IMG/VR virus record: IMGVR_UViG_3300023174_000133
Span: 1 to 64,000 of that record
From: a virus
Direction: 5' to 3' (one strand)
DNA length: 64,000 nucleotides
The notes below the pieces were generated by a model. The model was not told the origin of the DNA. It made no database searches and saw nothing but the letters and a program-made list of their open reading frames with translations. Below are positions 9,808 to 30,419 of this stretch, piece by piece; positions within the stretch are counted from its first letter, which is position 1, and each line of letters opens with the position of its first letter. A program made the position numbers and the translations under genes.

Positions 9808-11127
9808 TTACAGAATGCTACTTGCTAATGTCGCTAATTGTGATCTTTCGCCTCTATCAAGTTTAATATGTCCGAATAGATCCTGACCCTTAAGCTTTTC
9901 GATAGCGATAGTCAGACCGTTCGAGTATCTATCCATATATGGAGTATCTACCTGATCGATATCACCAAGAAGCACCATCTTCGTATCCTGACCGCAACGA
10001 GTGATGAGCGTCTTTAATTCATGTATCGTTAAGTTTTGAGATTCATCGACGATGATATAAGATTTAGCAAATGAACGCCCTCGAACATAAGTGATTGGAG
10101 ATACTTCGATTTCTCCCTTCTCTCTCATCATTTCGAACCATGAAACGTCATGGAATGCGTTTCTAAAGTTGTCTACGATAGGCATTAACCAAGGTGCCAT
10201 CTTTTCATCGACAGTACCTGGCAAGAAGCCGATATCACGACCAACAGGTTCGATCGATCTGGTGATAATAATTCTATCGTAAATCTTGTTTCGAAGACCA
10301 GAGATTCCAACCGTGAGCGCCAAGAACGTCTTACCAGAACCAGCAAGACCAGTCAAAGCGACGAGTGGAACGTCAGGGTCAGTCAAAAGGTGCATCGCTG
10401 CCTTTTGTTCTTTGGAACGAGGCTTCACTTGAATCATACTGTCACCAAGTGTCCTCGGGGGCACGATTTTATCGTCTTTTACCATACCGATTAAAGACTG
10501 ACCCTCGGGAGTTGTTCCAACTACAAGACTGTTTTGTATAAACAGCTCAGGATTCACTCCTGTGGCGTCTAAAGGCACACCATCATCGGCATAAAAGTGG
10601 TCAATGGCATCTTTGTCAAGAGTGACGTGGAGTACGCCAGAGTGAATTGGATTGCCATCTCTAACAGATATTGGCAAGTCTCTGTAATAGTCCTCTGCCT
10701 CTAAACCAAGCGCATCACACTTGACTCTGAGATTGATGTCTTTCGTAACTACTTTGACTTTTTTATCTGGGTAATTCGCACGTAATGCTAAGGCCGAAGA
10801 TATAATCCTGTTATCGCCTTGATTTGCAGGAAAAGCGTCAGGTAAATCGTGTCGACGCTCTTCGTTCGAAACTCTAATTACGATGTCTTTATCTTTTAAA
10901 TTTATGCCGGTCGATAAAGAACCAATTTCTCGTAATTCATCGAGATATCGATTGACTAATCTTGCATTGCTTCCGACAGTCCCTTGTTTTTCCTTGAATC
11001 TATCGAGCTCTTCCAAAACTATCATAGGAAGAATAACGTCATTGCCTGTAAACTGATAAATTGACTCTGCATCGTACAACAAAACGCTTGTATCGATGAC
11101 CAAAAGTTTACGTTCACTCAAACACAC
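9808..11127 (-). CDS. PIN-PhoH fusion ATPase/ribonuclease (YlaK/PhoH2 type)
   Basis: The N-terminal PIN domain (residues of about 5-130) opens LLVIDTSVLLYD with the conserved acidic residue and continues VILPMIVLEELDRF. The C-terminal PhoH ATPase (about 235-439) carries Walker A GLAGSGKT, Walker B SYIIVDESQNL and the sensor stretch VLLGDIDQVDTPY. This architecture (about 440 aa) is the bacterial PhoH2 type, in which the PIN RNase is coupled to an RNA helicase-like ATPase. Phages widely carry phoH genes; the PIN-fused form is less usual than the short phage PhoH. The role in infection is not established; RNA unwinding and cleavage is the best family-based guess. Confidence 0.93.
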   Translation of the reverse strand: MCLSERKLLVIDTSVLLYDAESIYQFTGNDVILPMIVLEELDRFKEKQGTVGSNARLVNRYLDELREIGSLSTGINLKDKDIVIRVSNEERRHDLPDAFPANQGDNRIISSALALRANYPDKKVKVVTKDINLRVKCDALGLEAEDYYRDLPISVRDGNPIHSGVLHVTLDKDAIDHFYADDGVPLDATGVNPELFIQNSLVVGTTPEGQSLIGMVKDDKIVPPRTLGDSMIQVKPRSKEQKAAMHLLTDPDVPLVALTGLAGSGKTFLALTVGISGLRNKIYDRIIITRSIEPVGRDIGFLPGTVDEKMAPWLMPIVDNFRNAFHDVSWFEMMREKGEIEVSPITYVRGRSFAKSYIIVDESQNLTIHELKTLITRCGQDTKMVLLGDIDQVDTPYMDRYSNGLTIAIEKLKGQDLFGHIKLDRGERSQLATLASSIL

Positions 11128-12978: not shown

Positions 12979-13419
12979 TTATCTCGCCTGTCTATCTGCA
13001 ACGCAAGATGATGCCCACGACTCGGGCTTACAAGATACTTCAAATCCCATACCCATCACGTACGAAGAAACATTACTGTGAAATTTAGAAGACATCGTAT
13101 CTCTTGAAGAGACGTCAACATGGACTTTTGCTTTTCTACCCGTCGTCTCTTCAATTTCTTGAGCAATTTCAACGGAAAGATACGCTTCGTAAAGTAACCT
13201 GTCAACAAGAGTTTTAAATTGTTCTTTAGGAAAGCGCATGCGCTTTGTATAAAATCGCCCACCCCGCCCAGGAGTATGACAACAAACTACAGTAGCAAAA
13301 AGCCAATCTTTTCCATAAGAATGCGAATCGGTACCGACATATGTTTTATTTTCTTGTACTTTTATATCTTCGAACATCTCGATTGTTCTATCGCGCTCAC
13401 CAGAAGGTTCAAGCCACAT
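12979..13419 (-). CDS. YkuK-type RNase H-like fold protein (DUF458), 146 aa
   Basis: The sequence KTYVGTDSHSYGKD (first acidic residue after a beta strand), HVDVSSRDTMSSKF and CKPESWASSCVADRQAR matches the YkuK/DUF458 family. That family is predicted to have a ribonuclease H-like fold, with Asp residues at the usual positions and the invariant ASSVADR-type C-terminal motif. Length agrees with the family. The substrate is unknown in any organism as far as I know. The start overlaps the chaperonin-like stop by 11 nt, so it is in the PrkA operon. A phage copy is unusual. Confidence 0.8.
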   Translation of the reverse strand: MWLEPSGERDRTIEMFEDIKVQENKTYVGTDSHSYGKDWLFATVVCCHTPGRGGRFYTKRMRFPKEQFKTLVDRLLYEAYLSVEIAQEIEETTGRKAKVHVDVSSRDTMSSKFHSNVSSYVMGMGFEVSCKPESWASSCVADRQAR

Positions 13420-14608
13420 TTTTCACCAAAAATGTATGAGATAAATTATTTTTCAATGAATTGAAAGAATTATTTGCGATATTAATCGCTTCGATAGGAA
13501 TTGTGATCGATTTGTTTTCTATCATGACTTCAACACACCCGCTTTTTCTAGAACGAATTAAATTTCTATTAATATAATCGATTCTATCAAAAATAACATC
13601 GACGGTATTTCCAAATTCTTTCCCAATTCCGACTTCTATTCGTCTCGAAGATAAAAATTTGATCCTTTCTCCAACGATTTCTTTTAAACCATTGAATTCT
13701 ATAGATTCTTTTAAAATTTTAGAAATTAATTCTTTGGAACTTTTCGATAGTCGTTCGTCTTGAAGTAATAATTTCGAATCTTCGATTCTGATATTTTTAA
13801 TCAAAAATCTTTCTTCTAAAAGTAGATTGTTGTTCTCATTCCCAAGACACGTCGCCAAATCTTTTATCACGAACTCAGAATTTAAATCAACCGTTGAAGT
13901 TATTGGTACAATTTTTGTTTTTTGAGAACGCCAGTTGTGCAATAACGTACTAACAACTTCGTATCCAAATCCCCTTGTTAATAAGACAATTGTCGACTCT
14001 TTTTTAATGTGTTCATTAATAATCTTGTCTATTTGAGATGCACGCTCGATTACACCATCGTATATGACAAGGTAGCTATTCGAAAAATTTAATTTTTCTC
14101 CAAATTCCTTTATTTGAATTATAGGAAAAGAAAAGCAATCGTCACATGAAACGTACGACTTGCGAGTATTTTTAATAATACTCATCGAACAATTAGAACC
14201 ACCTAATTCTATGGCTTTTAATATCGAATCTTGAAGAATTTCTATTTTCGCGTCTTCAACAATCTTATTGACGAAGCTTCTATCAAGTAATCCTGATTTT
14301 TTAATCTTTAATTCTGCTTCGACAATTTTCGACAATAAAATCACGGCAGAGCCTGGACATGTTTGTTCTACCTTGTAGAGATTACGAAGTAGTATATCTT
14401 TGGCCGCCGATTCGTCTTCTTTTATTTTTAATTCGACAAGGATTCTAAATAAATCTTGTGGTCCCAAAAAAACGATTCGATTATCAAAAAACAAATGGGA
14501 ATCACCAGCAAAGGTCTTTTGAAAAACCTCTGAGGCGATTCCCTTTATTTGAGAGAAAAGAATAGTTTCTTTATTCTTAACTGTCTCTCCAAAGATTGTT
14601 CGACGCAA
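13409..14608 (-). CDS. Diverged GroEL-like chaperonin, 399 aa
   Basis: Several GroEL landmarks can be aligned by eye. KNTRKSYVSCDDCFSFPII plus SYLVIYDGVIERASQIDKII and STIVLLTRGFGYEVVSTLL correspond to the apical strand-helix units. TKIVPITSTVDLNSEFVIKD / LATCLG corresponds to the KAPGFG / DIAxLTG region. GLKEIVGERIKFLSSRRIEV corresponds to the LxERxAKLxGGVAVI segment returning to the equatorial domain. At about 399 residues it is far shorter than GroEL (about 540), and the ATP-site GDGTTT is replaced by a PGSA-type sequence, so nucleotide hydrolysis may be lost. Starts at TTG and overlaps prkA by 32 nt. Jumbo phages are known to encode diverged chaperonins. Homology is probable, not proven. 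Confidence 0.65.
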   Translation of the reverse strand: MRRTIFGETVKNKETILFSQIKGIASEVFQKTFAGDSHLFFDNRIVFLGPQDLFRILVELKIKEDESAAKDILLRNLYKVEQTCPGSAVILLSKIVEAELKIKKSGLLDRSFVNKIVEDAKIEILQDSILKAIELGGSNCSMSIIKNTRKSYVSCDDCFSFPIIQIKEFGEKLNFSNSYLVIYDGVIERASQIDKIINEHIKKESTIVLLTRGFGYEVVSTLLHNWRSQKTKIVPITSTVDLNSEFVIKDLATCLGNENNNLLLEERFLIKNIRIEDSKLLLQDERLSKSSKELISKILKESIEFNGLKEIVGERIKFLSSRRIEVGIGKEFGNTVDVIFDRIDYINRNLIRSRKSGCVEVMIENKSITIPIEAINIANNSFNSLKNNLSHTFLVKNVA

Positions 14609-16502
14609 ACGTTAAAATCTCCTCGGCAGATTCTGCTGTATAACCATACGAGTCGATCATCGTTTGTATCATTTCTGAATATTTCTTTTGTTGTTCGTTA
14701 TCGCGGCTCTTCGATTTGGTAACAATTCGAGCCATGTCTTTTACTGACGCGATAAGGTAAGACTCGATAGCTTCACGAAGAGGTTCATATGACTTATAAT
14801 CAACCTTCGTACCGCGACGAACCTTGGCAAACATGAATGCTGTCACGTCGGCTCTAAAACCATCGCGAGCCGAACCAGTGATACCAATTTGCTCTTCAAG
14901 ATTCTTCATGAACTTTTCATCTGGCTCGCGTTCTTCTGAGGTCACGCGATCCTTAAGACGTTGGCGCGTCGTGTAAGCCTCAGCGTTATCGAGATAGTTA
15001 TCGAATAGCGCCTGGGCTTGTTCTTCGTAAGCGGTCACGAACGCCTTCGCGATTTCACCTTCAAGAATCTTGAGGTATTCTTCACGAATCGTTTTTTGTA
15101 GAATTTCGAGGTAACGCTTCTTATCATCTTCGTTGATGATTTGTTCCTTTACCTGCTTAACAAGAACATCAACGACTCGCATTGGTGTGATGAATCCCTT
15201 ATCAGAGTCAGTGAGTGCAGAGTCGATGGCCTTGGTAATGAATCGAGTGGAAATACCATCCATGCCCTCATGCTTTGCTTCGTCGCGGAGGTCACGAATG
15301 TCGACCTTCTTAGTGCGACCCTTCTCGACAATTTCTTGACCATCATAAATCTTCATCTTAGTGATGAGATCACACTTTTGTGAAGGCTTGAGACGGCTCA
15401 TAACTGAGAACATCGCAGCAGTCTTAATCGTGTGAGGCGCAAGATGATAACGGAAATCAGACTTACGAAGCATCTTCTCGTAGATCTTCATTTCCTGAGT
15501 GAGTTCTAAGACGTAAGGTACTTCAATCTTAACAACACGATCAAGAATCGCTTCATTTGTGTGTTCGGACTTAAATCGATTCCACTCTGCTTCGTTACAA
15601 TGCGAAAGAATCACGCCGTCGAAGTAAAGCATCGAGTTCTTTCCCGGAGTTGGAACACTCTTTTCCTGCGTCGCAGTGATAATCGTGTGTAAGAATTCAA
15701 TTTCGTTCTTAAAAATTTCTACGAATTCTACGACACCACGGTTACCAACGTTAAAAGCACCGTTCAAATTTAGAACGCGAGGATCATCTTCACTAAATTT
15801 ATCGAGCTTAGAAATGTCTTCTGAGCCGATTAGAGCAGAAACGTCCTGAGAGTTGGCATCCATTGGAGGTACAACTGCAATGCCTCGGCGGCCACGCTGT
15901 GAAAACGACGAACGTACAACTGGGAACTTTTCATACTCACCTTTGTATTCCTCCATTAGACGATGACGACAAACTGGACAAAGATCGCCTTCGATGTGAA
16001 TGCCCAAGATCTCCTGGAACTTATCCCTGAGCGAGCGGGGAAGTAGGTGTAATGGTTCTTCACGGATCGGACACCCGTCGAGGTGGTAGACCGGCTCAGC
16101 AGCTTTCTCGAGCGCCTTTTTAAGGTGGTCAGCGAGCGCAGACTTACCAGAACCGACAGGACCCATGAGCAGGAGAACCTGACGACTTTCTTCGCCCTTA
16201 AGTGACGCTGACTTCAAAAATCGCATGATCTTAGCGATTACACGTTCGTGACCATAAAATTCGTCCTTGAAATAGTTGTAGGTCTTTAGACGATCACCAT
16301 CGAATAATTTACGGCATCGCGGGTCAGATTCGTCGAGCACTTCGACACCTAAACCTTCAATTGAATCGACGAGACGACGAGCTGCTAACTTAACAACTTC
16401 TGGGCTCTTTTGAATTTCGCCAAGATAGTCTACGAAGGTACCCCTCCACGCTTCCTTGACAGATTCTTTCCTTTGCTTTTTAATAATGTCTAAGAAATCC
16501 AT
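14577..16502 (-). CDS. prkA: PrkA-family serine protein kinase (YeaG type)
   Basis: At 641 residues it has the family's full length (E. coli YeaG 644). Walker A MGPVGSGKS is at 114-121, followed by YHLDGCPIREEPLHLLP, a Cys pair in GDLCPVCRHRL, VPPMDANSQDVSALIGSED, and NEAEWNRF in the AAA core. The C-terminal kinase-like PrkA domain is helical and complete. In enterobacteria YeaG with YeaH senses nitrogen or other stress. Here it is followed by a chaperonin-like gene and preceded by SpoVR- and YeaH-like genes, all same strand with gaps or overlaps under 35 nt. A complete trio implies functional, not residual, use. How it helps the phage is unknown. Confidence 0.95.
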   Translation of the reverse strand: MDFLDIIKKQRKESVKEAWRGTFVDYLGEIQKSPEVVKLAARRLVDSIEGLGVEVLDESDPRCRKLFDGDRLKTYNYFKDEFYGHERVIAKIMRFLKSASLKGEESRQVLLLMGPVGSGKSALADHLKKALEKAAEPVYHLDGCPIREEPLHLLPRSLRDKFQEILGIHIEGDLCPVCRHRLMEEYKGEYEKFPVVRSSFSQRGRRGIAVVPPMDANSQDVSALIGSEDISKLDKFSEDDPRVLNLNGAFNVGNRGVVEFVEIFKNEIEFLHTIITATQEKSVPTPGKNSMLYFDGVILSHCNEAEWNRFKSEHTNEAILDRVVKIEVPYVLELTQEMKIYEKMLRKSDFRYHLAPHTIKTAAMFSVMSRLKPSQKCDLITKMKIYDGQEIVEKGRTKKVDIRDLRDEAKHEGMDGISTRFITKAIDSALTDSDKGFITPMRVVDVLVKQVKEQIINEDDKKRYLEILQKTIREEYLKILEGEIAKAFVTAYEEQAQALFDNYLDNAEAYTTRQRLKDRVTSEEREPDEKFMKNLEEQIGITGSARDGFRADVTAFMFAKVRRGTKVDYKSYEPLREAIESYLIASVKDMARIVTKSKSRDNEQQKKYSEMIQTMIDSYGYTAESAEEILTFASNNLWRDS

Positions 16503-16517
16503 AATACCTCCGAGTTT

Positions 16518-17840
16518 CTACGAAACTTCAAAATCTTCTTCTTCAATTATTGTAAAGAGCTTAACCGGACCCTTCCAGAGCTCTCTAACCATTCTAACAC
16601 TATTGTCCGCGTAATCTAATTCTAAATCTCTTCCATCATGTTCATGACGTAAAATTAATTCTCCGTCCTTCATTTCATCGACGTAAATAATGGGTATCAT
16701 ATTACCGCCGACTTGTCCCATGACAACCTTTCTAATTTCTTGAAATGAATCTTCGTCATCAACAATTTCGTCGATGGTCCAATCACCACTTCTTCCCTTT
16801 CCTTTTTTGCTATAAGTAAAAAGATTTAGCTCTCGAGCGAGATCTTCGTTAAGATATTGTCTTATAAAGCTCTCATCATTACATACTTCTCTGGCAAAAA
16901 AACATTCCGCAAGACCAAAATCTTTTTCGATTCTCTTAAAGATTTCGAATCCAAGGTGATATGGATTGATTCTTAATCCCCACGGACGCAAAACAAGGTT
17001 GTGCGTCTTTAAAAATGGAAGGTGATATTCATCGGGCAGATCAAGTTCATGCAAAAGTTTATAGTGCCAAAAACTTGCCCAACCCTCGTTCATCACCTTA
17101 GTTCGAATTTGGGGCATAAAGTAAAGTGATTCTTCATGAACAATATTAATCAAATCCCGTTCCCAGTCTGTAAGACGAGGATTTTGTTCCATGATGAACT
17201 TTAAAATATCGTACTCAGGTTCAAGGGGAATTTTTTCGATATCGAAATCCTTCCATTCTCCCTTTTCATCATTTTTAATAAGATTGTGATACTTCTTACG
17301 TAATTCTCTTTCCGAAAGACGAATTCTTCCTCGTCGATCGTGTTGATACTGAAGCACATGACAAGCATCAAGAATTTTTTCGACTGCTTCTACACCTATA
17401 GATGGATCTTCGATATAACCTTGTATGCGATTTCTTGCGGCTCTAAAACGAAGAGCAACCGTATCAGCGTCTGTATCTTTAAAGGTCCTATTATTTTTAA
17501 AGAAATCACTATGACCGACGCAGTGAGCCATAATAAGAATCTGTAAATACAACGGATTCTCGAGCATAAGATAGGCTATTGAAGGGTTAGAATTGATAAT
17601 CAATTCATAAGGAAGCCCTTCGTTACCTGAATTGTACATCGCGTGGGTTCTTTCGAACGACTTTCCATAAGACCAATGTGAATAGTGACTCGGCATACCA
17701 TGATAACTCATGGCACCGATCATTTCATGATAATTGATGGTCTCATAAGCAATTTCGTACCAATCTAAACCGTAACTTTTGGCAAGTTCACATATTTTTT
17801 TGTCCCATTCTTCGAGGTCATCAAGCGTATAATCAGACAT
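16518..17840 (-). CDS. SpoVR family protein (YcgB-like)
   Basis: At 440 residues it has the SpoVR signatures WYEIAYETINYHEMIGAMSY, HWSYGKSFE, IAYLMLENPLYLQILIMAHC, MNEGWASFWHYKLLHELDLP and the His-rich region AHCVGHSDFF. It is a little shorter than YcgB (about 510). SpoVR-family genes are frequently found with prkA and yeaH in bacteria. Its stop lies 15 nt before prkA and its start overlaps the yeaH stop by 8 nt, so the three form one transcriptional unit. Biochemical activity of the family is not established. Confidence 0.95.
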   Translation of the reverse strand: MSDYTLDDLEEWDKKICELAKSYGLDWYEIAYETINYHEMIGAMSYHGMPSHYSHWSYGKSFERTHAMYNSGNEGLPYELIINSNPSIAYLMLENPLYLQILIMAHCVGHSDFFKNNRTFKDTDADTVALRFRAARNRIQGYIEDPSIGVEAVEKILDACHVLQYQHDRRGRIRLSERELRKKYHNLIKNDEKGEWKDFDIEKIPLEPEYDILKFIMEQNPRLTDWERDLINIVHEESLYFMPQIRTKVMNEGWASFWHYKLLHELDLPDEYHLPFLKTHNLVLRPWGLRINPYHLGFEIFKRIEKDFGLAECFFAREVCNDESFIRQYLNEDLARELNLFTYSKKGKGRSGDWTIDEIVDDEDSFQEIRKVVMGQVGGNMIPIIYVDEMKDGELILRHEHDGRDLELDYADNSVRMVRELWKGPVKLFTIIEEEDFEVS

Positions 17841-19017
17841 TTATTTCTCCTCCGAAGAAATTCATGAACACTTTCCAAATTTCAGTTTTATCTCCAATCG
17901 TCGCAACCTTTACGGGCGCGCCCAAACCAGAGAGCTGCGTGTATAGTTTCGACACGAAACCTTCTTTTTCCCATGCCATTCTATCTTCGTGTGGTCTAAT
18001 TTCGACGTATCCAACTAACTGCGAAATAGAACCGAGCTCTTTGAATTGATGAACGGCGCCATCGTTATCTTCATCAAAGTTATCACCATCCGAGCAATGA
18101 AACGCGTAAATATTCCACGCTGACGGGTGATAACGTTCTCTAATAATTTCTCTTGCGAGTTCTGGTGCAGAAGAGACAAATGTCCCACCGGCCGATCCAC
18201 GCTTGAAGAATGAGTCTTCGTCAGTTTCGAAAGCTTCGGTGGTGTGCGCGACGAACACGATCTCAACTTTCTCGTACTTGTGACGAATGAATTGATATAA
18301 AAGAAAATAAAATGAGCGAGCAAGAAACTTTATATTTTGCGTCATTGAACCAGAAACGTCCATCATAAAAAAGATAACGGCGTTTGTGGCTTCCTTCGGA
18401 CGATTCTGGATATGATGATATCGAAGATCGTTATCGTGAAAAGGAAAAATTTCATCGCCAGTCTCAGGATCGATTTCAACAGCTCCTGCACGTCGAGCAG
18501 CAGATAACCTCTTGATTCGCTGGATAGCCGATTCACGTTTGTCCAAGCGAGGCTTAATGCCAGAAGTTCTTGTTCCATGTCGTCGAGGTTTTTCTTCAAG
18601 AACTGTTCGAAGCTTCTTGCGTTCTAAATCCGGAAGGTTGAGAGAATCGAATAGATATTCGGCTAATTCGTCCAAGTCGATTTCTACATCGTAGAATTCT
18701 TCGCCCTTATCGTTACCAGCCTTTCGACCAGAACCTTGACCTTTTTCACCGCGTCGAACAATTTGGTCTTTTTCAAGATCCGTACCAGGACTTGAACCTG
18801 CGCTTTTTTGATTATTATCGCCGTAAACGAATTGCCATTCTTTAATTCCTTTAACAGGAATTCTAACTTTTTTCTTTCCGTCTTGTCCGATAATAGACTC
18901 TTCGGAAACAATATCCACTATACCTTCGCGAATTGCCTTTTCTATCTTTTGTTTATGTCTCGCTCGGTCAGAAGCAGAACGATCTGCTGTAGTTTTATGT
19001 TCTTTAAAAATAGACAT
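17833..19017 (-). CDS. YeaH/DUF444 family protein with vWA-like domain
   Basis: At 394 residues it opens MSIFKEHKTTADRSASDRAR, the basic DUF444 N-terminus, with GGNDKGEEFYDVEID-like and ELAEYLFDSLNLPDL regions in the middle. The C-terminal vWA-like fold carries the metal-site sequence FFMMDVSGSMTQ and AHTTEAFETDEDSFFKRG. DUF444 proteins partner PrkA in stress responses. Directly abuts the Nudix gene (1-nt gap), and the start is supported by that spacing. Confidence 0.95.
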   Translation of the reverse strand: MSIFKEHKTTADRSASDRARHKQKIEKAIREGIVDIVSEESIIGQDGKKKVRIPVKGIKEWQFVYGDNNQKSAGSSPGTDLEKDQIVRRGEKGQGSGRKAGNDKGEEFYDVEIDLDELAEYLFDSLNLPDLERKKLRTVLEEKPRRHGTRTSGIKPRLDKRESAIQRIKRLSAARRAGAVEIDPETGDEIFPFHDNDLRYHHIQNRPKEATNAVIFFMMDVSGSMTQNIKFLARSFYFLLYQFIRHKYEKVEIVFVAHTTEAFETDEDSFFKRGSAGGTFVSSAPELAREIIRERYHPSAWNIYAFHCSDGDNFDEDNDGAVHQFKELGSISQLVGYVEIRPHEDRMAWEKEGFVSKLYTQLSGLGAPVKVATIGDKTEIWKVFMNFFGGEINV

Positions 19018-19440
19018 TTATGACCTCTTCTTGCGTGGCATAACGGCCGTTAAAGCAAGACCATGAAATAATGCAGGCTTTAAAAATTCTGGCGATCTAT
19101 CAATCGCCTTACGCCAAGGAAGCCAAATTGCTTTATCATGTTCTAAAATACCCGTTTTAGGATTTCGCGCAATTGTAGGAACGCCATCCCAAAAAACGTA
19201 ATAAAATTGAATATTATCAAAAATTCCTGGCTGATCGCTTACCAATTCGCAATCTTCTTCGCGTATGCCCGCTTCTTCGTGTGCCTCTCGAAACGCCGCC
19301 TGAAACGCAGTTTCTCCTCGTTCAATAGCACCTTTGGGTAGGTCTAATCTTTCACCAACCCAAAGTGTTAACACTTTTTTCATATCATAAGACATAGCCA
19401 CAAGACCTGCCCCATTGATTTTATTATTTCTATTCCTCAT
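19018..19440 (-). CDS. Nudix hydrolase, 140 aa
   Basis: The Nudix box is complete: G-AIERGE-TAFQAAF-REAHEEAG (consensus Gx5Ex7REUxEExGU). The flanking sequence (AMSYDMKKVLTLWVGERLDLP and TGILEHDKAIWLPW) resembles the bis-nucleoside tetraphosphate or RppH-like class, with a WxxxxxA aspect around the box. Possible jobs are cleaning nucleotide signals (ApnA) or decapping RNA; the sequence does not decide. Lies at the head of the YeaH-SpoVR-PrkA operon. Confidence 0.9.
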   Translation of the reverse strand: MRNRNNKINGAGLVAMSYDMKKVLTLWVGERLDLPKGAIERGETAFQAAFREAHEEAGIREEDCELVSDQPGIFDNIQFYYVFWDGVPTIARNPKTGILEHDKAIWLPWRKAIDRSPEFLKPALFHGLALTAVMPRKKRS

Positions 19441-19531: not shown

Positions 19532-19873
19532 CTATCTATTATAATCGTCCTCTAATCTTACAACGTCGTTTGGATAATACGTGCTCACTTCTAATAGCTT
19601 GACTTCCACTTGTTCTGCACAAAATCTATGGATTGTTCCTGGTTTGACGTGAAAAGATTCACCAGGTATCAAAAACTCTACACGTAAATCATCTTGCGAA
19701 CCGACTTCTAACCTAAGCACGCCCTCGAGGACTCGTATCGTCTCTTCTTTATTAACGTGATATTGTCTTGATAATCTAAAGCCCGGGTTAATTGTGATAA
19801 TCTTTCCAAGATATGCTTCACATTCTGCCCAAATTTCCTCGTTACCCCATGGCTTTTCAATAAATTTACTCAC
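19532..19873 (-). CDS. Cupin-fold protein, mannose-6-phosphate-isomerase-like, 113 aa
   Basis: KPWGNEEIWAECEAYLGKII followed by the cupin metal motif RQYHVNKEETIRVLEG (two His/Glu ligands) and GESFHVKPGTIHRF is the pattern of the small type II phosphomannose isomerase cupins. The N-terminal EKPWG sequence is the family hallmark. Overlaps the upstream metallopeptidase stop by 8 nt. A sugar-phosphate isomerase role is possible, but small cupins also act as binding proteins. Confidence 0.8.
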   Translation of the reverse strand: MSKFIEKPWGNEEIWAECEAYLGKIITINPGFRLSRQYHVNKEETIRVLEGVLRLEVGSQDDLRVEFLIPGESFHVKPGTIHRFCAEQVEVKLLEVSTYYPNDVVRLEDDYNR

Positions 19874-20300
19874 TTTCTAACTCCTTTTCATATACTTTGT
19901 TATGTCCCATAACTTCTGTGAAAGCATTTAATAACTTGCCAGCGACTTCGTTCGCGCCATCTTCGAGTTCTGACGAGAAATGCAAATCGCTTTTTTTAGG
20001 ATGTAATCCACTTTCGAGTTGTTTTAAATGAAACATTTCGTGTGCGATACTTCGTAGAACATCGGGAAGCAATCTACCACGACAAAATATTTTTATTTTC
20101 TTTAGTTCGAACTGACAGACTGCTGTTGTTTCTATGTTGTGTTTCTTACGATCTCCAACAAGATAACATTTGTATTCGTCGTGCAGCGAAAGCGCTCTTG
20201 AACAATATTGAACGTATAACTCCAATATTCGTTTAACTTCATCGTTAATACGAAGGTTCTTTTCAAGAAAAATTCTTACGCTTACATTATTTGTCGACAT
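19866..20300 (-). CDS. HExxH metallopeptidase-like protein, 144 aa
   Basis: SIAHEMFHLKQLESG carries the zincin HExxH motif near residue 85, followed by ELEDGANEVAGKLLNAF where the Glu/Asn-rich helix could supply the third ligand. There is no signal peptide, so it acts inside the cell. Similar short HExxH proteins occur in phages, with unknown targets. Start overlaps the cytidylyltransferase stop by 14 nt. Confidence 0.75.
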   Translation of the reverse strand: MSTNNVSVRIFLEKNLRINDEVKRILELYVQYCSRALSLHDEYKCYLVGDRKKHNIETTAVCQFELKKIKIFCRGRLLPDVLRSIAHEMFHLKQLESGLHPKKSDLHFSSELEDGANEVAGKLLNAFTEVMGHNKVYEKELESE

Positions 20301-20799
20301 TTGATGCTGACTCTATTAGCCACGATGACGACTGGATTTTGCCACCACCTACTCCGAAAATTACTTTACAACCGATTTCTTCGCATAAATCGAATTCAGG
20401 CACATTCGCAGCAGCGTCTCTATCGCCACCTTTTGTAAATGCAACGGGCTTTAGTATTGCTATAGCTCCGACAACTGTTTGTGAACCATCATCCCATGGG
20501 ACAACATAATCTACACCACGAACGCCAGCTATAATTTCAATACGCTCAGCCTCAGGCATAAATGGTTTGCCTTTTTTGCGCACTAAAAATCCGTCGCTAT
20601 TAACGATAACTGCAAATTTAATTTTTTTTCCCTTAAAATATTTTTGCTCTTGACAAATTTTCGCGCTCTCTTGAAGACAGCGAAGATGTCCAATGTGCAT
20701 GGGATCGAATCCACCTGACGTTACGATAAGTTCTTCGTTAAAAACGTCAGCGTGCATCCTAAGTTCTTGCACATCTTTAAAGATATTGTGTTCATTCAT
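20287..20799 (-). CDS. Cytidylyltransferase-fold protein (HldE/RfaE C-terminal type), 170 aa
   Basis: TSGGFDPMHIGHLRCLQESA is the nucleotidylyltransferase HxGH motif. VNSDGFLVRKKGKPFMPEAE, FTKGGDRD and KIQSSSWLIESA match the pattern of the ADP-heptose synthase transferase domain (ISSSxxI motif). The kinase half is absent. It may activate a sugar phosphate for surface polysaccharide or tRNA/DNA modification. It heads the short gene group with the metallopeptidase and cupin. Confidence 0.85.
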   Translation of the reverse strand: MNEHNIFKDVQELRMHADVFNEELIVTSGGFDPMHIGHLRCLQESAKICQEQKYFKGKKIKFAVIVNSDGFLVRKKGKPFMPEAERIEIIAGVRGVDYVVPWDDGSQTVVGAIAILKPVAFTKGGDRDAAANVPEFDLCEEIGCKVIFGVGGGKIQSSSWLIESASNVDK

Positions 20800-20827: not shown

Positions 20828-22465
20828 CTATTGTAAACTCTTCTTAAATGTCTCTGGGAATAGATGCGAGTTACTACCATAAAATCGTTGCCAGTCGACA
20901 TCAAGAATGTAACTCGCAGCATGATCGTTTTCGTTTCTAATAGAACGACCTAAGGACTGAACAACAGTTTTCGCGGTCTCAAAGGCGTACCACCAACCCC
21001 AGCGGTGCATACGCTTCTTGACAATTTTATCTCCAAGATAAGGGTACGGAACCTTGCAAATAATTTGAAAGCGAGATAAATTATCCTTCAAGTCTACGCC
21101 TTCCTGCATCGAAGGAGACACGATTACGGTAGGTTCTTTTGAGCGCATGTGCTCTTCTAATTTCTTGTGTCGATCCTCAGAACCATGGAAAATCAGTCGT
21201 TTATTCTTAATGTGTTGTTTAATGTAAGAGGCGATTTTATAGCTATGAGCGTGAATGATTCCCTTCTCTTTTGGGTGTTGTTCAAGGATGCTTTTGATTG
21301 CCTCGACCAATTTAGGAAGGTCAGCATCGATCGTCCCAGCTGACATTTTAGCGATTGGAAAAGCGAAAATTGGATGATTGTTAGAATCGAATGGAGACGG
21401 AATCGACATAAACGAAACATCGTCGTCGGCGATGCCAAGCATTCTACAAAAACCTGTTTGATTAATAATGGTAGCAGACATCATTAATACCTTACGACCA
21501 CTTTTAAACAAAATTTGTTCGGCGTATGGCGAAATGTCGATCGACTTAAACTCGAGTTTTCGCATTCCCTTTCCTTCGCCATCAGAAAGATTAAACACCC
21601 AATTCTCTTCATCGTAGAGCGAAAGGAATTGCTCGATCTTCGTAAGATGTTTACTCAACATATCGTACTGTTTCGTAATTTTTTCGAACTCTCCGTTACC
21701 TTTTTCGTTGAGTTTGAACTTCTCGATAATCATTTCATATTGAGCAACATGAACTTTCAACTGCTGAATATAAACGTTTTTAACCCAATCAAAAGATTGC
21801 TTTTGAGTAGAGAGTTCTGGCATTTCAAGCTTGAGCGCGCTCAAAGCGAATCGCTCAGATACCGAGATTTCGATGAACTTACACAGCTCGCCGTCTGCGT
21901 TATGCGCTTCGTCGACGACAAGTAGGTTACGAGGCTCAAGCTTTCCGGAATACGCAGTTTCGGTTAGAAAATAACTGAAATTTGTCACCGACTCGTCTGA
22001 TGAAATAAACTTCGTCTTTTCTTCTCTGTACGTACAGTGAAATTTGCAGGTGCGATAAAACTTCGACGTTGTATCAGTCTCTGCCTTTAATTGTTGTAGG
22101 GATTCACCACAGTTTTGTTTTTTGTGATGCTTGCACTGATAATTTGCAGCCGACATAATTTGTCGCATGCCACCGTCAGGTTCACCGAAATCGTGGATGT
22201 ATTGTTCTTGAAGCAGCTTCTGAGTAGTCAAAAAATAAGCACCGTTTTTATACCCAGAGTCTGAGTTTTGCGGTTGCGTCGCAGTGAGGTAACGTGCGAT
22301 AGTCATACCGATAGCAGATTTTCCAACGCCCGTCGCAGCTTCCAAAACCATGAAGCGTTTATTTTCTGTAACGAATGCGTTAAGAGCAGCGTTAATCGCA
22401 TTTTCCTGCGCTTCACGACACTCGGCATAAGGAAAATACTGAATCCAATCGCTCTTCGTAATCAA
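20828..22465 (-). CDS. DinG/XPD-like superfamily 2 helicase
   Basis: At 545 residues it has Walker A EAATGVGKSAIGMTIA (about 45-58), DEAH box VVDEAHNAD, motif VI QSLGRSIRNEND, and a cysteine cluster CKHHKKQNC/CKFHC between them, as in the Fe-S domain of DinG/XPD enzymes. It unwinds 5'-3' and could resolve R-loops or replication intermediates. TTG start at 22465 with GGAGAG upstream, 5 nt away. T4-like phages carry the related Dda/UvsW types; a DinG type is less common. Confidence 0.9.
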   Translation of the reverse strand: MITKSDWIQYFPYAECREAQENAINAALNAFVTENKRFMVLEAATGVGKSAIGMTIARYLTATQPQNSDSGYKNGAYFLTTQKLLQEQYIHDFGEPDGGMRQIMSAANYQCKHHKKQNCGESLQQLKAETDTTSKFYRTCKFHCTYREEKTKFISSDESVTNFSYFLTETAYSGKLEPRNLLVVDEAHNADGELCKFIEISVSERFALSALKLEMPELSTQKQSFDWVKNVYIQQLKVHVAQYEMIIEKFKLNEKGNGEFEKITKQYDMLSKHLTKIEQFLSLYDEENWVFNLSDGEGKGMRKLEFKSIDISPYAEQILFKSGRKVLMMSATIINQTGFCRMLGIADDDVSFMSIPSPFDSNNHPIFAFPIAKMSAGTIDADLPKLVEAIKSILEQHPKEKGIIHAHSYKIASYIKQHIKNKRLIFHGSEDRHKKLEEHMRSKEPTVIVSPSMQEGVDLKDNLSRFQIICKVPYPYLGDKIVKKRMHRWGWWYAFETAKTVVQSLGRSIRNENDHAASYILDVDWQRFYGSNSHLFPETFKKSLQ

Positions 22466-22892: not shown

Positions 22893-23309
22893 TTACTCTA
22901 CTGAAATTTTTCGCTTACTTGGGCGCTTCACAGGAACTTCTAAATGAAGGACACCAGCTTCATACTTCGCAGAAATATTTTCATAGTTTGTACCGTCAGG
23001 TAGAGACCACGACTTTTCATAAGTCGCCTTATTCGTCTCCGAATTTTTCGCAGCATTTACAGGACTCGGAATAAACGAATACATACTCGACGAATTTCGA
23101 ATTTCACGAGATGCACTAACTCGTAGTGTATTCGAAACGATCTCAACGTCGATATCAGAACGAGAAAGGCCGGGCAAATCGATGTCGATTTCAAACCCTT
23201 CATCCGTCCTACGAACGTTTGAATTCGCAAGCCAGGAATTTTCGAACGTGTTCTTGGTATTGCCAAACATATTATCAATCATATCGTAGTGAATAAGACC
23301 AAACATCAT
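22893..23309 (-). CDS. Small heat shock protein (Hsp20 / alpha-crystallin)
   Basis: At 138 residues it has a short N-terminal arm. The alpha-crystallin domain is visible as FEIDIDLPGLSRSDIDVEI, TLRVSASREI and AKYEAGVLHLEVPVKRPSKR (the GVLxLxVP signature), with the beta-sandwich of sHsps. Myoviruses of marine bacteria often carry hsp20. With GroEL-like and PrkA genes it suggests a protein-quality theme in this phage. ATG at 23309 follows AGGAGAAA. Confidence 0.93.
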   Translation of the reverse strand: MMFGLIHYDMIDNMFGNTKNTFENSWLANSNVRRTDEGFEIDIDLPGLSRSDIDVEIVSNTLRVSASREIRNSSSMYSFIPSPVNAAKNSETNKATYEKSWSLPDGTNYENISAKYEAGVLHLEVPVKRPSKRKISVE

Positions 23310-24317: not shown

Positions 24318-24408
24318 TGGCGGGTGTGAGGTGATTCGAACACCTGACTGCCTTTCGACAGTGCCACGGTTCCAGCGTGGTGCATTAGACCAACTATGCT
24401 ACACACCC
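24318..24408 (-). tRNA. tRNA-Ser (GGA)
   Basis: 91 nt with a long variable arm, anticodon loop CTGGAAC, stem CCACG/CGTGG, acceptor GGGTGTG/CACACCC, discriminator G and genome-encoded CCA. Starts the scattered tRNA set. Confidence 0.93.
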
Positions 24409-24483
24409 AAAGTTACAAACATTTACAACAATAATTATTCTCGAGACTATGTAAATAAATGAGCTGCGTCACGAGGTGATTTT

Positions 24484-25218
24484 ATGAGGGTAGCTTCGAC
24501 ATTATTCTTATTATTCTCTATATTTTTTCTCACCTCGTTTAGTGAAGTGAGAACTATCGTTAGACAAGACGGAATTAACCCTCCATCTAATTCATTTGGA
24601 TTTGTAGTTTCGATAGTCACTATAAAAAATGCTGAAAAATGTTTAAAAGATGGTTGTCAAGAAGGCATGACTGCTGTCTCTTCTGCGTCTTCAACGATAG
24701 TACAACAAGAGAACGGATTTACAAGATTACTCACGGCCGGTCACGCATGCGCAGTATCAGAAGCCGGAGATACCGTAACGATGATCGAGGATTTCGAAGG
24801 ACAAAAGCACTTCGTAACATCACAAGTCTATTCGGGTGATCCTGATTTGTGTTTACTCGAAACAGATGGGACTTGGGGCACTCCCCTCGGCATCTCGCTT
24901 GTAACTCCACAACATGGAGATAGGGTTTGGAATATGGCTGCGCCAAGTGGAATATTCGCACCAGGCATGTTATTAATTTTCGAAGGATATTATTCTGGCG
25001 AAAAAGACGGGAGCGACTACTACACAGTTCCAGCCGCGCCAGGATCTTCAGGCAGCGCCATACTAAATTCTAAAGGCGATATAATCGGAGTAATACATTC
25101 TGCTATACTAAAGTTTCCAAATTTAGCAGCTTGTGTAACTCAAGAACAAATTATATCTTTTTTGAAAAAAGCAACCGCGATTCTGGACGAGAGACACTCA
25201 AATCCTGATCAGGAATAG
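24484..25218 (+). CDS. Secreted trypsin-like serine protease, 244 aa
   Basis: N-terminal signal peptide MRVASTLFLLFSIFFLTSF is followed by a chymotrypsin-type fold: catalytic His in LLTAGHAC (residue 87), Asp in SGDPDLCLLE (near 119-121) and Ser in APGSSGSAIL (residue 189, GxSGS motif). Six Cys residues after the signal may form disulfides. A plus-strand gene between minus-strand ones. A secreted protease in a phage genome is uncommon; targets could be surface proteins of the host or of predators. Export is inferred from the signal. Confidence 0.85.
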   Translation: MRVASTLFLLFSIFFLTSFSEVRTIVRQDGINPPSNSFGFVVSIVTIKNAEKCLKDGCQEGMTAVSSASSTIVQQENGFTRLLTAGHACAVSEAGDTVTMIEDFEGQKHFVTSQVYSGDPDLCLLETDGTWGTPLGISLVTPQHGDRVWNMAAPSGIFAPGMLLIFEGYYSGEKDGSDYYTVPAAPGSSGSAILNSKGDIIGVIHSAILKFPNLAACVTQEQIISFLKKATAILDERHSNPDQE

Positions 25219-25351
25219 AAAAATAAACGCCGCTGCACAAGTTATAAGAAAGCTCGTTGTTTAACATTAAATGCCCACTAACAAGCTCAGCGGGTCTATT
25301 AAACGGGCTTACAATAACTCCAAAACTAAATAATAAATTTGTGAGTAACAA
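25151..25351 (-). CDS. Possible small membrane protein, 66 aa
   Basis: A TTG start at 25351 with GGAG upstream yields MLLTNLLFSFGVIVSPF and then hydrophilic sequence. It overlaps the protease C-terminus on the opposite strand by 68 nt and has no recognised motif. The Shine-Dalgarno-like site and hydrophobic N-terminus argue for it, while the antisense overlap argues against. Weak call. Confidence 0.35.
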   Translation of the reverse strand: MLLTNLLFSFGVIVSPFNRPAELVSGHLMLNNELSYNLCSGVYFSIPDQDLSVSRPESRLLFSKKI

Positions 25352-25386
25352 AGTGACTCCAAAAAAGTTGAATGCGTTTTTATATA

Positions 25387-25758
25387 TCAACCAAGAGTCA
25401 TTTCTTCCCACTCACCATCCCAATTTGTGTATCGAACGACTTCAACACCACGCAATCGAAGAAATTTTTGACAATGAATACAAGGTTTGGCCATCGTAAT
25501 TTCGCCCGTCGACTTAAAACGAGTAACAAAAATTTTTCTTGGGATATTTTTTCCCATCTTTAGTATCAAATCGACTTCTGCATGTCGTTCATGACAAGAA
25601 CCCTTCCATCCTTGATACCATTTTTTATATTTTGCAGTCTGTTTCCAGCTACAAATACCGCGAGTCTCACTTTTTTTATCCGCCCAAGCCACTACGTGGA
25701 ATGGATGACCATTCGCAAGTGCAGCGTTGAGCAGTTCATAGTAGAGAGTTGGACACAC
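25387..25758 (-). CDS. Cytidine/deoxycytidylate deaminase-fold protein, 123 aa
   Basis: Zinc ligands typical of the deaminase family are visible: CHERHAEVDLIL (HAE) and KPCIHCQKFLR (PCxxC). The length fits a small deaminase, though the sequence between the motifs is unusual (PRKIFVTRFKSTGEITMAKP). Could supply dUMP or act on another nucleotide. GTG start near a GGAGG, behind a GTTATATT promoter word 14 nt upstream. Confidence 0.8.
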   Translation of the reverse strand: MCPTLYYELLNAALANGHPFHVVAWADKKSETRGICSWKQTAKYKKWYQGWKGSCHERHAEVDLILKMGKNIPRKIFVTRFKSTGEITMAKPCIHCQKFLRLRGVEVVRYTNWDGEWEEMTLG

Positions 25759-25772
25759 CCACCTCCAAAACT

Positions 25773-25780
25773 AATATAAC
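25773..25780 (-). promoter_or_regulatory. GTTATATT promoter word upstream of the deaminase
   Basis: The minus-strand word GTTATATT lies 14 nt before the GTG at 25758 and just before the GGAGG. It is part of the nine-copy set described in the findings. Confidence 0.5.
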
Positions 25781-25805
25781 TCGTATTTAAAAAATGAACA
25801 TCTTT

Positions 25806-26693
25806 TTAGAAAAGATTACTGAAATATCTCTCGCCCCGGTCGCAGAGTACGGTCGCGACATTTTTAGCACCTGTCTTACGAGCCCATCGTTCTGCGGCTA
25901 TCAAATTTGCGCAAGCAGAAAATCCAACAAATAAACCCGACGACGCCGCCAATATTCTTGAGCGTTCTTCGGCTTCATGAGTCTTGACAAGGATTATATC
26001 GTCGACTTTTTTCAAATCCACGAGAAATTTTGAACCATCGCCGATTCCCTGAATGCCATGAAGACCTTTTTGTCCACCACTCATAACTGGAGATTCGGCT
26101 GGTTCGACAGCAACTAATTTCGTATTGGGAGAAAGCGTTCTAAATACATGCCCGACTCCCATCAATGTGCCACCTGTACCAGTCCCGGCTACGAAAGCAT
26201 CGAGCGTAATACCTTGTTCACGAAGCTGATTCCAGAGCTCACTACCTGTACCATCAATGTGAGCCCTAATATTCCAATGATTATGAAATTGATTACCGTT
26301 AAACCAACCATTCGTCTCAGCCATTTCGTTCCTAAGCGCAATCGCTCCCTCAAAATCTCCATCTCCCACCTCTATGAGCTTTGCACCATAAGCCTTAAAC
26401 GCTTTCTTCCTTTCCTCACTCATGTTCTTCGGCATAATAAGCGTGCAAGAAATTCCATAATACGCGCAAAACATCGCAAATGAAATACCTGCGTTACCAG
26501 AAGTCGCCTCTATGAGATTTCCACCTCTGGCAAGTTTACCTTCTCGCATTGCCTCTTGCATAATTCTTAACATCGGACGGTCTTTTATCGAACCACTTGG
26601 ATTTAAAAATTCTGCCTTCGCCCAAATAACTAAATCGCCCAAGTCAAATTTTAGTAGTGGAGTATTTCCAACAAGGTCGGGTAACGTTAACAT
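25806..26693 (-). CDS. Cysteine synthase-like PLP enzyme (CysK/CysM family)
   Basis: The PLP-lysine motif is NPSGSIKDRP with K37; LIEATSGNAGI and GTGTGGTLMG (phosphate-binding glycine loop) follow, as does a conserved C-terminal ending. The 295-residue length is near that of CysK/CysM (about 300). The reaction would be O-acetylserine plus sulfide to cysteine, or a related beta-replacement. TSGNAGI instead of the usual TSGNTGI is a small deviation. An auxiliary metabolic gene; it may relieve cysteine shortage or detoxify sulfide in the host. Confidence 0.92.
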   Translation of the reverse strand: MLTLPDLVGNTPLLKFDLGDLVIWAKAEFLNPSGSIKDRPMLRIMQEAMREGKLARGGNLIEATSGNAGISFAMFCAYYGISCTLIMPKNMSEERKKAFKAYGAKLIEVGDGDFEGAIALRNEMAETNGWFNGNQFHNHWNIRAHIDGTGSELWNQLREQGITLDAFVAGTGTGGTLMGVGHVFRTLSPNTKLVAVEPAESPVMSGGQKGLHGIQGIGDGSKFLVDLKKVDDIILVKTHEAEERSRILAASSGLFVGFSACANLIAAERWARKTGAKNVATVLCDRGERYFSNLF

Positions 26694-26701
26694 AAGGATA
26701 A

Positions 26702-26709
26702 GTATTTAG
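26702..26709 (+). promoter_or_regulatory. GTATTTAG late-type promoter word
   Basis: GTATTTAG lies 19 nt before the TTG at 26729, with GGAG between. One of the nine promoter-like words in the set. Confidence 0.4.
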
Positions 26710-26728
26710 AAATATCTGGAGATTTAAA

Positions 26729-27745
26729 TTGTTATTAAAAGAATTTCGCGCACTAATCAGAGAGATCATTCTTGAATCGACCCCAAGAATTCCTGACCTA
26801 TCAAGGGAAGACATAATCGAAGTACTACAAGACATCTTGGGTCGCGATCCTCTAATTTCTTATACTGAAAAATTAGCAGGTCAATTCCTGGAAATCAAAA
26901 TACAAGACGGAGAAGTCGGAAGCATATTCAAGGATGCAAAAGAAAAAGGAGTCCCGCACGGACTTAGATATGACACGGGAGGTACTGCGCGCAGTCTTCG
27001 TTCGATAACGCTGCCACCTGAAATGGAAGGAAAAACATATCAGTTTGAAATCCTAAAACCAGATAATAGGCCTGACTATGTCAATTATACTGTTGGCGAC
27101 AAAACTCTCGCGATTGAATTTACGGGAGCGTTAACACCAGAAGTCGCGTCGAAATTGAACGCTGCACAACCGCATGTTACATTTATGTCGAAGGCTGATA
27201 TTACTCGCAAACCAAAACCTCTTTCGCCTGAACTCGCCGAAAAGGTTAAGGCTGCATTAGTTGGCGTCTCATCTTCTCCGAAAATGAAGAGAGCCGATAA
27301 AGAAGCTATTGAATCTCTAATTTCGACAGCACTCGTAGAAATATTTGGAGACTCGATACTTGGCGGTGCACCAGAAGGTATATTCGCAACTGGCACTTCG
27401 AAATCATTTAAAATACCAGAAGCTTCTTACGCGTTAGTACAAAGGTTACAAGCTCCAATTTATGCCGTATTCTCAGAAAAGAGCACATACGATCTCCACG
27501 AGCTCGAAAATAGGATAGCTTCATTCACACCTGAAGATAAAATGGCGAAGCAAATAAAACAATACTTAGAAGCCACTGCTAACGGTTTACCGAAAGGATT
27601 CAGAACGTTCTTCACGCCTGAAGAAGCATCAGGATTATTGCAACAATTAGAATCGATCCTCACGGGCGACCCGACAACCGCTTCAAGTTTCTATAGGCAA
27701 TTCCGCCGCCGCGTTAGTAACAAAACACAGTGGGTCGCGACCTGA
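26729..27745 (+). CDS. Tagged, ligase-like fold protein, 338 aa
   Basis: TTG start with GGAG spacing. The N-terminal tag is LLKEFRALIREIILES, with the prohead-protease-type triplet ILE at the end. The rest resembles the covalent nucleotidyltransferase (ligase) fold: IKIQDGEVGSIF looks like motif I with shifted spacing (K-I-Q-D-G), YQFEILKPDNRPDYVNY resembles motif IIIa, and APEGIFATGTSKSFKI looks like motifs IV-V. The same layout is seen in 47230-48486. Catalytic lysine spacing is abnormal, so activity is uncertain. Possibly packaged in the virion. Confidence 0.6.
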   Translation: MLLKEFRALIREIILESTPRIPDLSREDIIEVLQDILGRDPLISYTEKLAGQFLEIKIQDGEVGSIFKDAKEKGVPHGLRYDTGGTARSLRSITLPPEMEGKTYQFEILKPDNRPDYVNYTVGDKTLAIEFTGALTPEVASKLNAAQPHVTFMSKADITRKPKPLSPELAEKVKAALVGVSSSPKMKRADKEAIESLISTALVEIFGDSILGGAPEGIFATGTSKSFKIPEASYALVQRLQAPIYAVFSEKSTYDLHELENRIASFTPEDKMAKQIKQYLEATANGLPKGFRTFFTPEEASGLLQQLESILTGDPTTASSFYRQFRRRVSNKTQWVAT

Positions 27746-27747
27746 TT

Positions 27748-27821
27748 TGGTAGGGCCACCAGGATTTGAACCTAGATTCTCAGAGTCAAAGTCTGATGTC
27801 CTACCCTTGGACGATAGCCCT
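27748..27821 (-). tRNA. tRNA-Gln (TTG)
   Basis: Anticodon loop CTTTGAC in stem TCAGA/TCTGA, acceptor AGGGCTA/TGGCCCT (one G-T pair), discriminator A, CCA encoded. 74 nt. Confidence 0.92.
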
Positions 27822-27826
27822 AAAAT

Positions 27827-27901
27827 TGGAGCGGGCGACGTGGATTGAACACGCGACCGGGAGGTTGGAAACCTCCAGCTCTACCGCTGAGCTACACCCG
27901 C
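27827..27901 (-). tRNA. tRNA-Gly (TCC)
   Basis: Anticodon loop TTTCCAA in stem GGAGG/CCTCC, acceptor GCGGGTG/CGCCCGC, discriminator T, CCA encoded. 5 nt from tRNA-Gln, so cotranscribed. Confidence 0.92.
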
Positions 27902-27947
27902 ACAAATAAAATATAAAAAGTTTTTATTCTTTGTTTATTATGAATAA

Positions 27948-29264: not shown

Positions 29265-29290
29265 CTTCCACCCCCTAATACATTATATTA

Positions 29291-29298
29291 TTAAGTAT
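29291..29298 (-). promoter_or_regulatory. ATACTTAA late-type promoter word
   Basis: On the minus strand, 26 nt before the start at 29264. Member of the nine-copy set. Confidence 0.4.
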
Positions 29299-29320
29299 GC
29301 GCTTTATACAAAACGCGAGG

Positions 29321-29406
29321 TGGTGGGTGAAGAAGGATTCGAACCTCCGTAGGCGTAAGCCGGCGGGTTTACAGCCCGCTCCCTTTGGCCGCTCGGGCAT
29401 TCACCC
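29321..29406 (-). tRNA. tRNA-Tyr (GTA)
   Basis: Long variable arm, anticodon loop CTGTAAA in stem GCGGG/CCCGC, acceptor GGGTGAA/TTCACCC, discriminator A, CCA encoded. 86 nt. Confidence 0.93.
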
Positions 29407-29420
29407 AAAACTATATTAAA

Positions 29421-29495
29421 TGGTGGAGGATAGGGGAGTCAAACCCCTGACCCCCTGCGTGCAAAGCAGGTGCTCTCTCACTGAGCTAATCCCCC
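29421..29495 (-). tRNA. tRNA-Ala (TGC)
   Basis: Anticodon loop TTTGCAC in stem CCTGC/GCAGG, acceptor GGGGGAT/ATCCTCC (one G-T), T loop TTTGACT slightly unusual, discriminator A, CCA encoded. 75 nt. Confidence 0.9.
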
Positions 29496-29499
29496 GAAG

Positions 29500-29587
29500 T
29501 GGCGGAATCGGCCTGATTCGAACAGGCGGTATCTTTCGATACGGAAGTTTTCAAGACTTCTGGAATAAACCGCTCTCCCACGATTCC
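29500..29587 (-). tRNA. tRNA-Ser (TGA)
   Basis: Long variable arm (GTATCGAAAGATAC hairpin), anticodon loop CTTGAAA in stem GAAGT/ACTTC, acceptor GGAATCG/CGATTCC, discriminator G, CCA encoded. A TTATATTCT box lies just upstream (29592-29600) and may be its promoter. Confidence 0.93.
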
Positions 29588-30402: not shown

Positions 30403-30419
30403 CGTGACACCTTAATCGT

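Follow-up and report, generated by a model that had tools for sequence, protein, structure and literature searches.

The trio locus

The DNA analysed here, referred to as the window, comprises 64 of the 82.5 kb of the linear IMG/VR virus record IMGVR_UViG_3300023174_000133, an incomplete metagenomic contig. Three adjacent genes on its minus strand encode YeaH (394 aa), SpoVR (440 aa) and PrkA (641 aa), and they are embedded in the following block.

22893-23309, minus strand: Hsp20 small heat-shock protein near the block (PF00011, E 2e-15)
20828-22465, minus strand: DEAD/Helicase_C_2-type DNA helicase, upstream of the block (phrog_2488, E 2e-110)
20287-20799, minus strand: nucleotidyltransferase, heptose-1-phosphate adenylyltransferase-like (PF01467; TIGR02199, E 6e-16, below the curated cut-off)
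19532-19873, minus strand: cupin, mannose-6-phosphate isomerase C-terminal-like (PF01050, E 1e-10)
19018-19440, minus strand: Nudix hydrolase, directly upstream of yeaH (PF00293, E 4e-10)
17833-19017, minus strand: YeaH/YhbH (DUF444), vWA-type, first gene of the trio (PF04285, E 5e-105; TIGR02877 spore_yhbH, E 3e-113)
16518-17840, minus strand: SpoVR (PF04293, E 1.5e-118, plus SpoVR_C)
14577-16502, minus strand: PrkA/YeaG, AAA+ domain and PrkA C-terminal domain (PF08298, E 3e-140; PF06798, E 5e-80)
13409-14608, minus strand: pseudo-chaperonin, a shortened group-I chaperonin homologue of 399 aa with a TTG start (Foldseek, hhalign)
12979-13419, minus strand: YkuK-like/RNaseH-like protein, downstream of the pseudo-chaperonin (PF04308, E 5e-26)
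9808-11127, minus strand: PIN-PhoH ATPase (PF02562, E 2e-51, plus PF13638)

The genes of YeaH and SpoVR overlap by 8 bp, a gap of 15 bp separates SpoVR from PrkA, PrkA overlaps the pseudo-chaperonin gene by 32 bp and the Nudix gene directly abuts that of YeaH. Because of this tight packing the block looks like one operon, and both the spacing and the family matches uphold the preliminary description, made from the letters alone, which had placed the trio in a single operon with Nudix, YkuK-like and chaperonin-like genes. Its further statement that the three proteins are near-full length with intact motifs proved correct as to coordinates, full-length Pfam matches, and ATPase and metal-site residues. 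The Nudix gene precedes the trio in some relatives only and the position of the YkuK-like gene is likewise conserved in some of them, while the PIN-PhoH ATPase is commonly found in relatives a few kb downstream of PrkA. The genes neighbouring the trio specify no pathway, and scans for promoters and for the late promoter (TATAAATA) gave no signal above chance.

That the window might be a fragment of a bacterial chromosome or prophage, a concern raised at the outset, is contradicted by its classification as a virus in IMG/VR, by the presence of phage genes (topoisomerase II, DNA ligase, tail fibre) and by the occurrence of a terminase in 16 of the 18 long relatives of its clade. Judged by terminase, the nearest isolates are phages infecting Microcystis and Flavobacterium (about 41-43%), and the terminase and topoisomerase matches taken together point to a T4-like phage. 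Given that its relatives extend to 293 kb, the window probably belongs to the genome of a jumbo phage.

PrkA and the kinase label

Both domains of the window PrkA are full-length, scoring 467.6 bits (PF08298) and 269.2 bits (PF06798) against curated cut-offs of 25, and structures of a PrkA relative are available (PDB 9xip and two more entries). The AAA+ residues K120 (Walker A), N303 and R322 are invariant among 168 aligned PrkA sequences, N303 presumably occupying a sensor-type and R322 an arginine-finger position. In E. coli YeaG the residues K116, R232 and K426 are needed in vivo, and the substitutions K116A and K426A abolish function (PMC4664914). Loss of kinase residues on alignment had been named as a finding that would refute the preliminary reading; at two of the three positions the residue is retained in the window, K116 as K120 and K426 as K424, and R232 is replaced by S231, a serine that is also found at this position in all 16 Clostridia-type PrkAs.

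All 81 viral sequences of the window's clade have a lysine at the position of K426. On the other hand, 51 of 61 other bacterial PrkAs have D or N in place of this proposed catalytic lysine, while their AAA+ residues are invariant; furthermore, no Pkinase family appears among the Pfam matches and neither an HRD nor a DFG motif occurs in the PrkA translation. With a lysine that is not universal and no canonical kinase domain detected, the label "kinase" is weak. The biochemical literature is divided on this point, E. coli YeaG having reportedly phosphorylated AceA in vitro when malate was present (PMC8055822), whereas purified B. anthracis PrkA has no detectable kinase or protease activity and has been classed as a clade III AAA+ protein (PMC13001217). 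Thus, of the term "stress-kinase cassette" used in the preliminary description the three families stand and the word kinase calls for correction, with the reservation imposed by the AceA result. Judging from its conserved residues, PrkA is better read as the AAA+ partner in an AAA+/vWA machine than as a stress kinase.

A further trait of the protein is a group of three cysteines (C144, C175 and C178), all present in 31 viral sequences of the clade, the window included, and all replaced (D-S-A and similar) in the remaining 50; the triad is possibly a metal site.

YeaH and SpoVR

The MIDAS-type metal-site residues of the vWA domain of YeaH (D220-x-S222-G-S224, T279 and D310) are invariant in 46 of 46 aligned sequences, and the residues H106, H110, E252 and H259 of SpoVR in 80 of 80. 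The Pfam matches of both proteins (PF04285 and PF04293) are full-length, and their scores against the equivalog profiles lie under the respective cut-offs (YeaH, 379 vs 468 bits with TIGR02877; SpoVR, 275 vs 679 bits with NCBIfam PRK11767). SpoVR was modelled by AlphaFold2 with a pLDDT of 92.7; comparison of this model with the PDB returned no fold match, and no relative of either SpoVR or YeaH was found in a sequence search of the PDB.

A chaperonin-like protein devoid of ATP motifs

The product of the ORF at 13409-14608 matched no Pfam or PHROG family. Its AlphaFold2 model (pLDDT 89.7) has the equatorial-intermediate-apical fold and was matched by Foldseek to Hsp60/GroEL (E 1e-18), and hhalign related the protein to group-I chaperonin with a probability of 99.8% (E 1.6e-27). 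Fold and domain order are those of phage and bacterial GroEL, from which the protein differs in length (about 400 vs about 545 aa), in sequence (about 14% identity) and in having lost the LGPKG and GDGTTT motifs. Among 31 homologues, GDGTT is found in none and LGPxG in a single one. The name pseudo-chaperonin, rather than chaperonin, was chosen because of the loss of these nucleotide-binding motifs, and sequence and model show the protein to be a divergent, shortened group-I chaperonin.

Of the 75 viral loci offering sufficient room, 56 have a pseudo-chaperonin gene no more than 1.5 kb 3' of PrkA (about 58/80 in a wider count). No other protein of the block evolves nearly as fast, the pseudo-chaperonin having 30% identity where PrkA has 88%. 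At eight loci the best match is, in place of the pseudo-chaperonin, an intact GroEL located about 8-10 kb from PrkA, and the nearby full-length copies at three relative loci retain the ATP motif. A full-length GroEL is encoded elsewhere in the genome in all seven of the relatives of at least 190 kb that were searched; several jumbo-phage relatives possess both proteins. Beside the two other viral PrkA types described below, as well as beside the trio of the Thermus phages (profile search), no chaperonin match was obtained.

The trio in other viruses

Close relatives of the window PrkA were found in at least 153 IMG/VR contigs, the closest among the matches listed being 88% identical. Detailed locus counts were made on the best 80 of these 153: in 77 the genes follow one another in the order YeaH-SpoVR-PrkA on the same strand, the other three loci being truncated where the contig stops. 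Scans were also made with two further PrkA types, acquired independently by viruses, and yielded 230 and 171 additional viral hits, a subset of which was kept. When the count is made on kept contigs extending at least 4.5 kb on both sides of PrkA, the complete trio is present in 55/55 cases in the window's clade and in 45/46 and 60/60 cases in the two other types. Among the contigs of these two types there may be bacterial DNA assigned to viruses by mistake: terminase was strongly matched in 6 of their 18 long contigs, as opposed to 16 of 18 in the window's clade. The complete trio is the norm in virus genomes having PrkA and not a peculiarity of the window phage.

Among annotated phage records, tblastn with PrkA returned 16 entries corresponding to Thermus phages, four uncultured phages of ~600 kb and Enterobacter phage LAU1 (MN688132.1, 1-3308). 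The latter was set aside as probably host DNA, since its yeaG-yeaH genes are nearly identical to those of the enterobacterial host and lie at the very end of the record. Topoisomerase II, tried as a marker of trio prevalence, was abandoned as too broad, PrkA being present in 2 of 12 records.

The Thermus phages phiYS40, TMA, phiLo and Lalka8 carry the complete trio, deposited earlier with the annotations "serine kinase", "SpoVR" and "vWA protein"; profile searches recovered all three genes in phiYS40, phiLo and Lalka8. Their PrkA, about 33% identical to that of the window, belongs to a separate, very divergent lineage and not to a sister clade. The uncultured phages LR745206, LR756502, LR756504 and LR756511 likewise have all three genes, unannotated. 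For the Ralstonia jumbo phage RsoM2USA, SpoVR (ORF28) and PrkA (ORF30) have been listed two ORFs apart, with best matches in bacteria (Vibrio, Alcanivorax) and without a role being proposed for PrkA (PMC8504454); its likeness to the window is drawn from this published gene list, the phage being absent from the tblastn matches of PrkA to phage records.

The families themselves, the deposition of the trio in Thermus phages and the listing of PrkA and SpoVR in RsoM2USA are already known. The literature searched holds no function of the trio in phages, in agreement with what had been stated at first. The trio as a viral unit, its repeated acquisition and the pseudo-chaperonin were not found in the open-access literature, an absence that is not proof, and no paper with time-course data on phiYS40 was found there either.

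Origin and selection

In bacteria (Clostridia, Proteobacteria and others) an operon of PrkA, YhbH/YeaH and SpoVR comprises the same three full-length families as the window. The window PrkA is 54-61% identical to the Clostridia-type copies, and the Walker A and vWA metal-site residues are kept. The window differs from the bacterial operon in its location in a phage, in having the pseudo-chaperonin as the next gene and in gene order, the bacterial genes being usually arranged as PrkA-YeaH-SpoVR (55 of 80 loci); by comparison with this arrangement, the window's clade carries a rearranged version.

In the PrkA tree the window belongs to a single virus clade with full support, whose closest neighbour is a Clostridia clade. 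The same phages form a single clade in the SpoVR and YeaH trees (supports of 100 and 98), with inner groupings that match those of PrkA, and the recurrence of one phage clade in all three gene trees indicates that the window's clade inherited the trio as a unit. Elsewhere in the PrkA tree, three of the ~600-kb phages group with proteobacterial YeaG and the fourth with a Chloroflexi/Myxococcota type, which makes their acquisitions separate from that of the window, while the Thermus phages stand apart; from these separate positions it follows that there were at least three acquisitions of the set by viruses. Bacterial contamination as the source of the trio was rejected for the window's clade on the basis of synteny and phylogeny. 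A 306-kb contig deposited as part of a metagenome-assembled genome (NHDW01000006.1, "Methylococcaceae bacterium TMED69") also falls inside the phage PrkA clade and has the phage helicase-to-PhoH gene block; it is likely a binned phage genome.

As comparisons against the window were mostly saturated, dN/dS was determined on closer pairs of relatives with unsaturated dS, giving values of about 0.02-0.06 for PrkA, 0.014-0.05 for SpoVR and 0.013-0.05 for YeaH; purifying selection on all three genes is strong. Within the block PrkA evolves most slowly, its identity to the nearest relative being 88%, as compared with 75% for YeaH, 74% for SpoVR, 67% for the helicase and 66% for PhoH.

What could the trio do during infection?

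The trio is most likely an AAA+/vWA protein-remodelling machine used in infection, for host quiescence or for virion assembly. Its all-or-nothing occurrence in three independent viral lineages is strong natural evidence that the three proteins constitute one machine and that this machine is useful during infection.

The reading that we tentatively favour, granting it slightly less than an even chance, is that the three proteins make up one functional unit, a viral PrkA-YeaH-SpoVR system that would hold the infected cell in a quiesced, stress-tolerant and usable state. According to this scheme, the ancestor of the jumbo-phage clade would have taken the trio from a bacterium endowed with a Clostridia-type PrkA; PrkA would be the AAA+ ATPase motor, YeaH, its metal site intact, the vWA partner and SpoVR the third component. 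Made during infection, the trio would remodel or sequester particular proteins, and its action on host proteins would leave the cell quiesced but usable, as do YeaG and YeaH in E. coli, where the two act together as a "metabolic brake" under nitrogen starvation (PMC4664914, PMC10954441). The pseudo-chaperonin could be a non-ATPase, substrate-binding accessory that may hold substrates. In favour of the unit and of its braking function are the coupling of three genes with intact active-site residues, including both lysines whose substitution disables E. coli YeaG, their co-retention, the matching trees, the low dN/dS and the chaperone role already proposed for AAA+/vWA pairs of jumbo phages (PMC7824862), while the conserved pseudo-chaperonin, the Hsp20 and the intact GroEL of large relatives fit a protein-remodelling role. 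On the other side of the balance, a brake phenotype has been established for YeaG of the E. coli type only, a protein about 33% identical to the window PrkA, and virion assembly could be served by the trio equally well.

Virion assembly is indeed the main rival to host quiescence, albeit a somewhat unlikely one: PrkA as the motor, YeaH as co-chaperone, SpoVR and the pseudo-chaperonin would fold, dock or process phage structural proteins. A chaperonin-like gene does abut PrkA in most relatives, the large ones having also a full GroEL, and in Thermus phage Lalka8 the trio sits between portal/head genes and the terminase gene. In addition, the MoxR AAA+/vWA pair of group 2.2 jumbo phages, a proposed chaperone-cochaperone, has been put forward for such a role with a precedent in an archaeal virus (PMC7824862); like the trio, this pair combines an AAA+ motor with a vWA partner in jumbo phages, and it departs from the trio by its different AAA+ family, by the lack of SpoVR and by the fusion of the vWA domain to a metallopeptidase. 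However, a 257-kb relative of the window has its terminase gene about 56 kb away from the trio, the genes around the trio encode helicase, PhoH, Nudix and nucleotidyltransferase and not head proteins, the bacterial orthologues work in starvation and sporulation, where no virions are made, and no chaperonin match adjoins PrkA of the two other viral types. Quite unlikely, in our judgement, is that PrkA acts as a Ser/Thr kinase phosphorylating host targets and thereby resetting stress or starvation signalling, in spite of its long-standing annotation, of the AceA phosphorylation and of the lysine shared by the whole viral clade; the missing kinase domain, the D or N at that position in most other bacterial PrkAs and the lack of detectable kinase activity in the B. 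anthracis protein all argue against it.

It is very unlikely that the phage copy competes or forms mixed complexes with the PrkA system of the host, so as to block host quiescence or a linked defence. Such interference would be in keeping with the nature of these orthologues, which are intact yet have diverged from a host system of broad distribution, and with the very fast evolution of the pseudo-chaperonin, which could reflect conflict; yet a dominant-negative decoy requires neither full catalytic integrity nor low dN/dS, and PADLOC gave only weak generic AAA matches and hence no support for a defence system. Finally, the notion that the genes are passenger bacterial DNA or an assembly artefact, having no role in the virus, is hardly credible: the family is bacterial and the record an incomplete metagenomic contig, but 80 or more contigs share the trio, the long ones with a terminase, and each of the three genes forms one deep phage clade and is strongly constrained by selection.

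An extension of the favoured host-quiescence reading, unlikely as it stands, would see in these genes a four-component machine in which the PrkA motor, YeaH and SpoVR are joined by the ATPase-dead chaperonin as a substrate-binding platform; on three or more occasions large viruses would have captured the core, as an inseparable set, in order to keep hosts quiesced, and the "sporulation genes" of ocean viromes would then be this machine. In the viromes of oxygen-minimum zones spoVR is the most abundant sporulation gene and has been interpreted as such (PMC8940887), although its presence there may bear no relation to spores. Bacteria of many kinds possess PrkA, YeaH and SpoVR, and the present analysis exposes in jumbo phages an unannotated, fast-evolving family of chaperonin-like proteins lacking ATP motifs. 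Insofar as trio-bearing Thermus phages are in culture, the idea of a machine is open to experiment.

Other features of the record

The large subunit of topoisomerase II (53765-55669, minus strand) is closest (53-55%) to that of the ~640-kb phages LR756502 and LR745206, both of which also have the trio, with a PrkA type different from that of the window. A cysteine synthase (CysK/CysM)-like gene at 25806-26693 on the minus strand (E 6e-85, below the curated cut-off) is a candidate auxiliary metabolic gene. Thirteen tRNA genes are spread over 24318-39095, mostly clustered around 27.7-33.1 kb, and a protein of 1763 aa encoded at 760-6051 on the minus strand has no PHROG match.

At least nine otherwise unrelated small proteins share the N-terminal motif (M)xIKLTEaxLRqIIREE. 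Their genes are found inside the window at about 31287, 31786 and 44544, on the minus strand, and, in the portion of the record searched beyond these (63001-82534), at record positions ~66889, 68356, 68767, 69917, 71052 and 77707. The shared motif resembles a tag for targeting or cleavage that these proteins have in common, perhaps comparable with the capsid-targeting sequence of T4.
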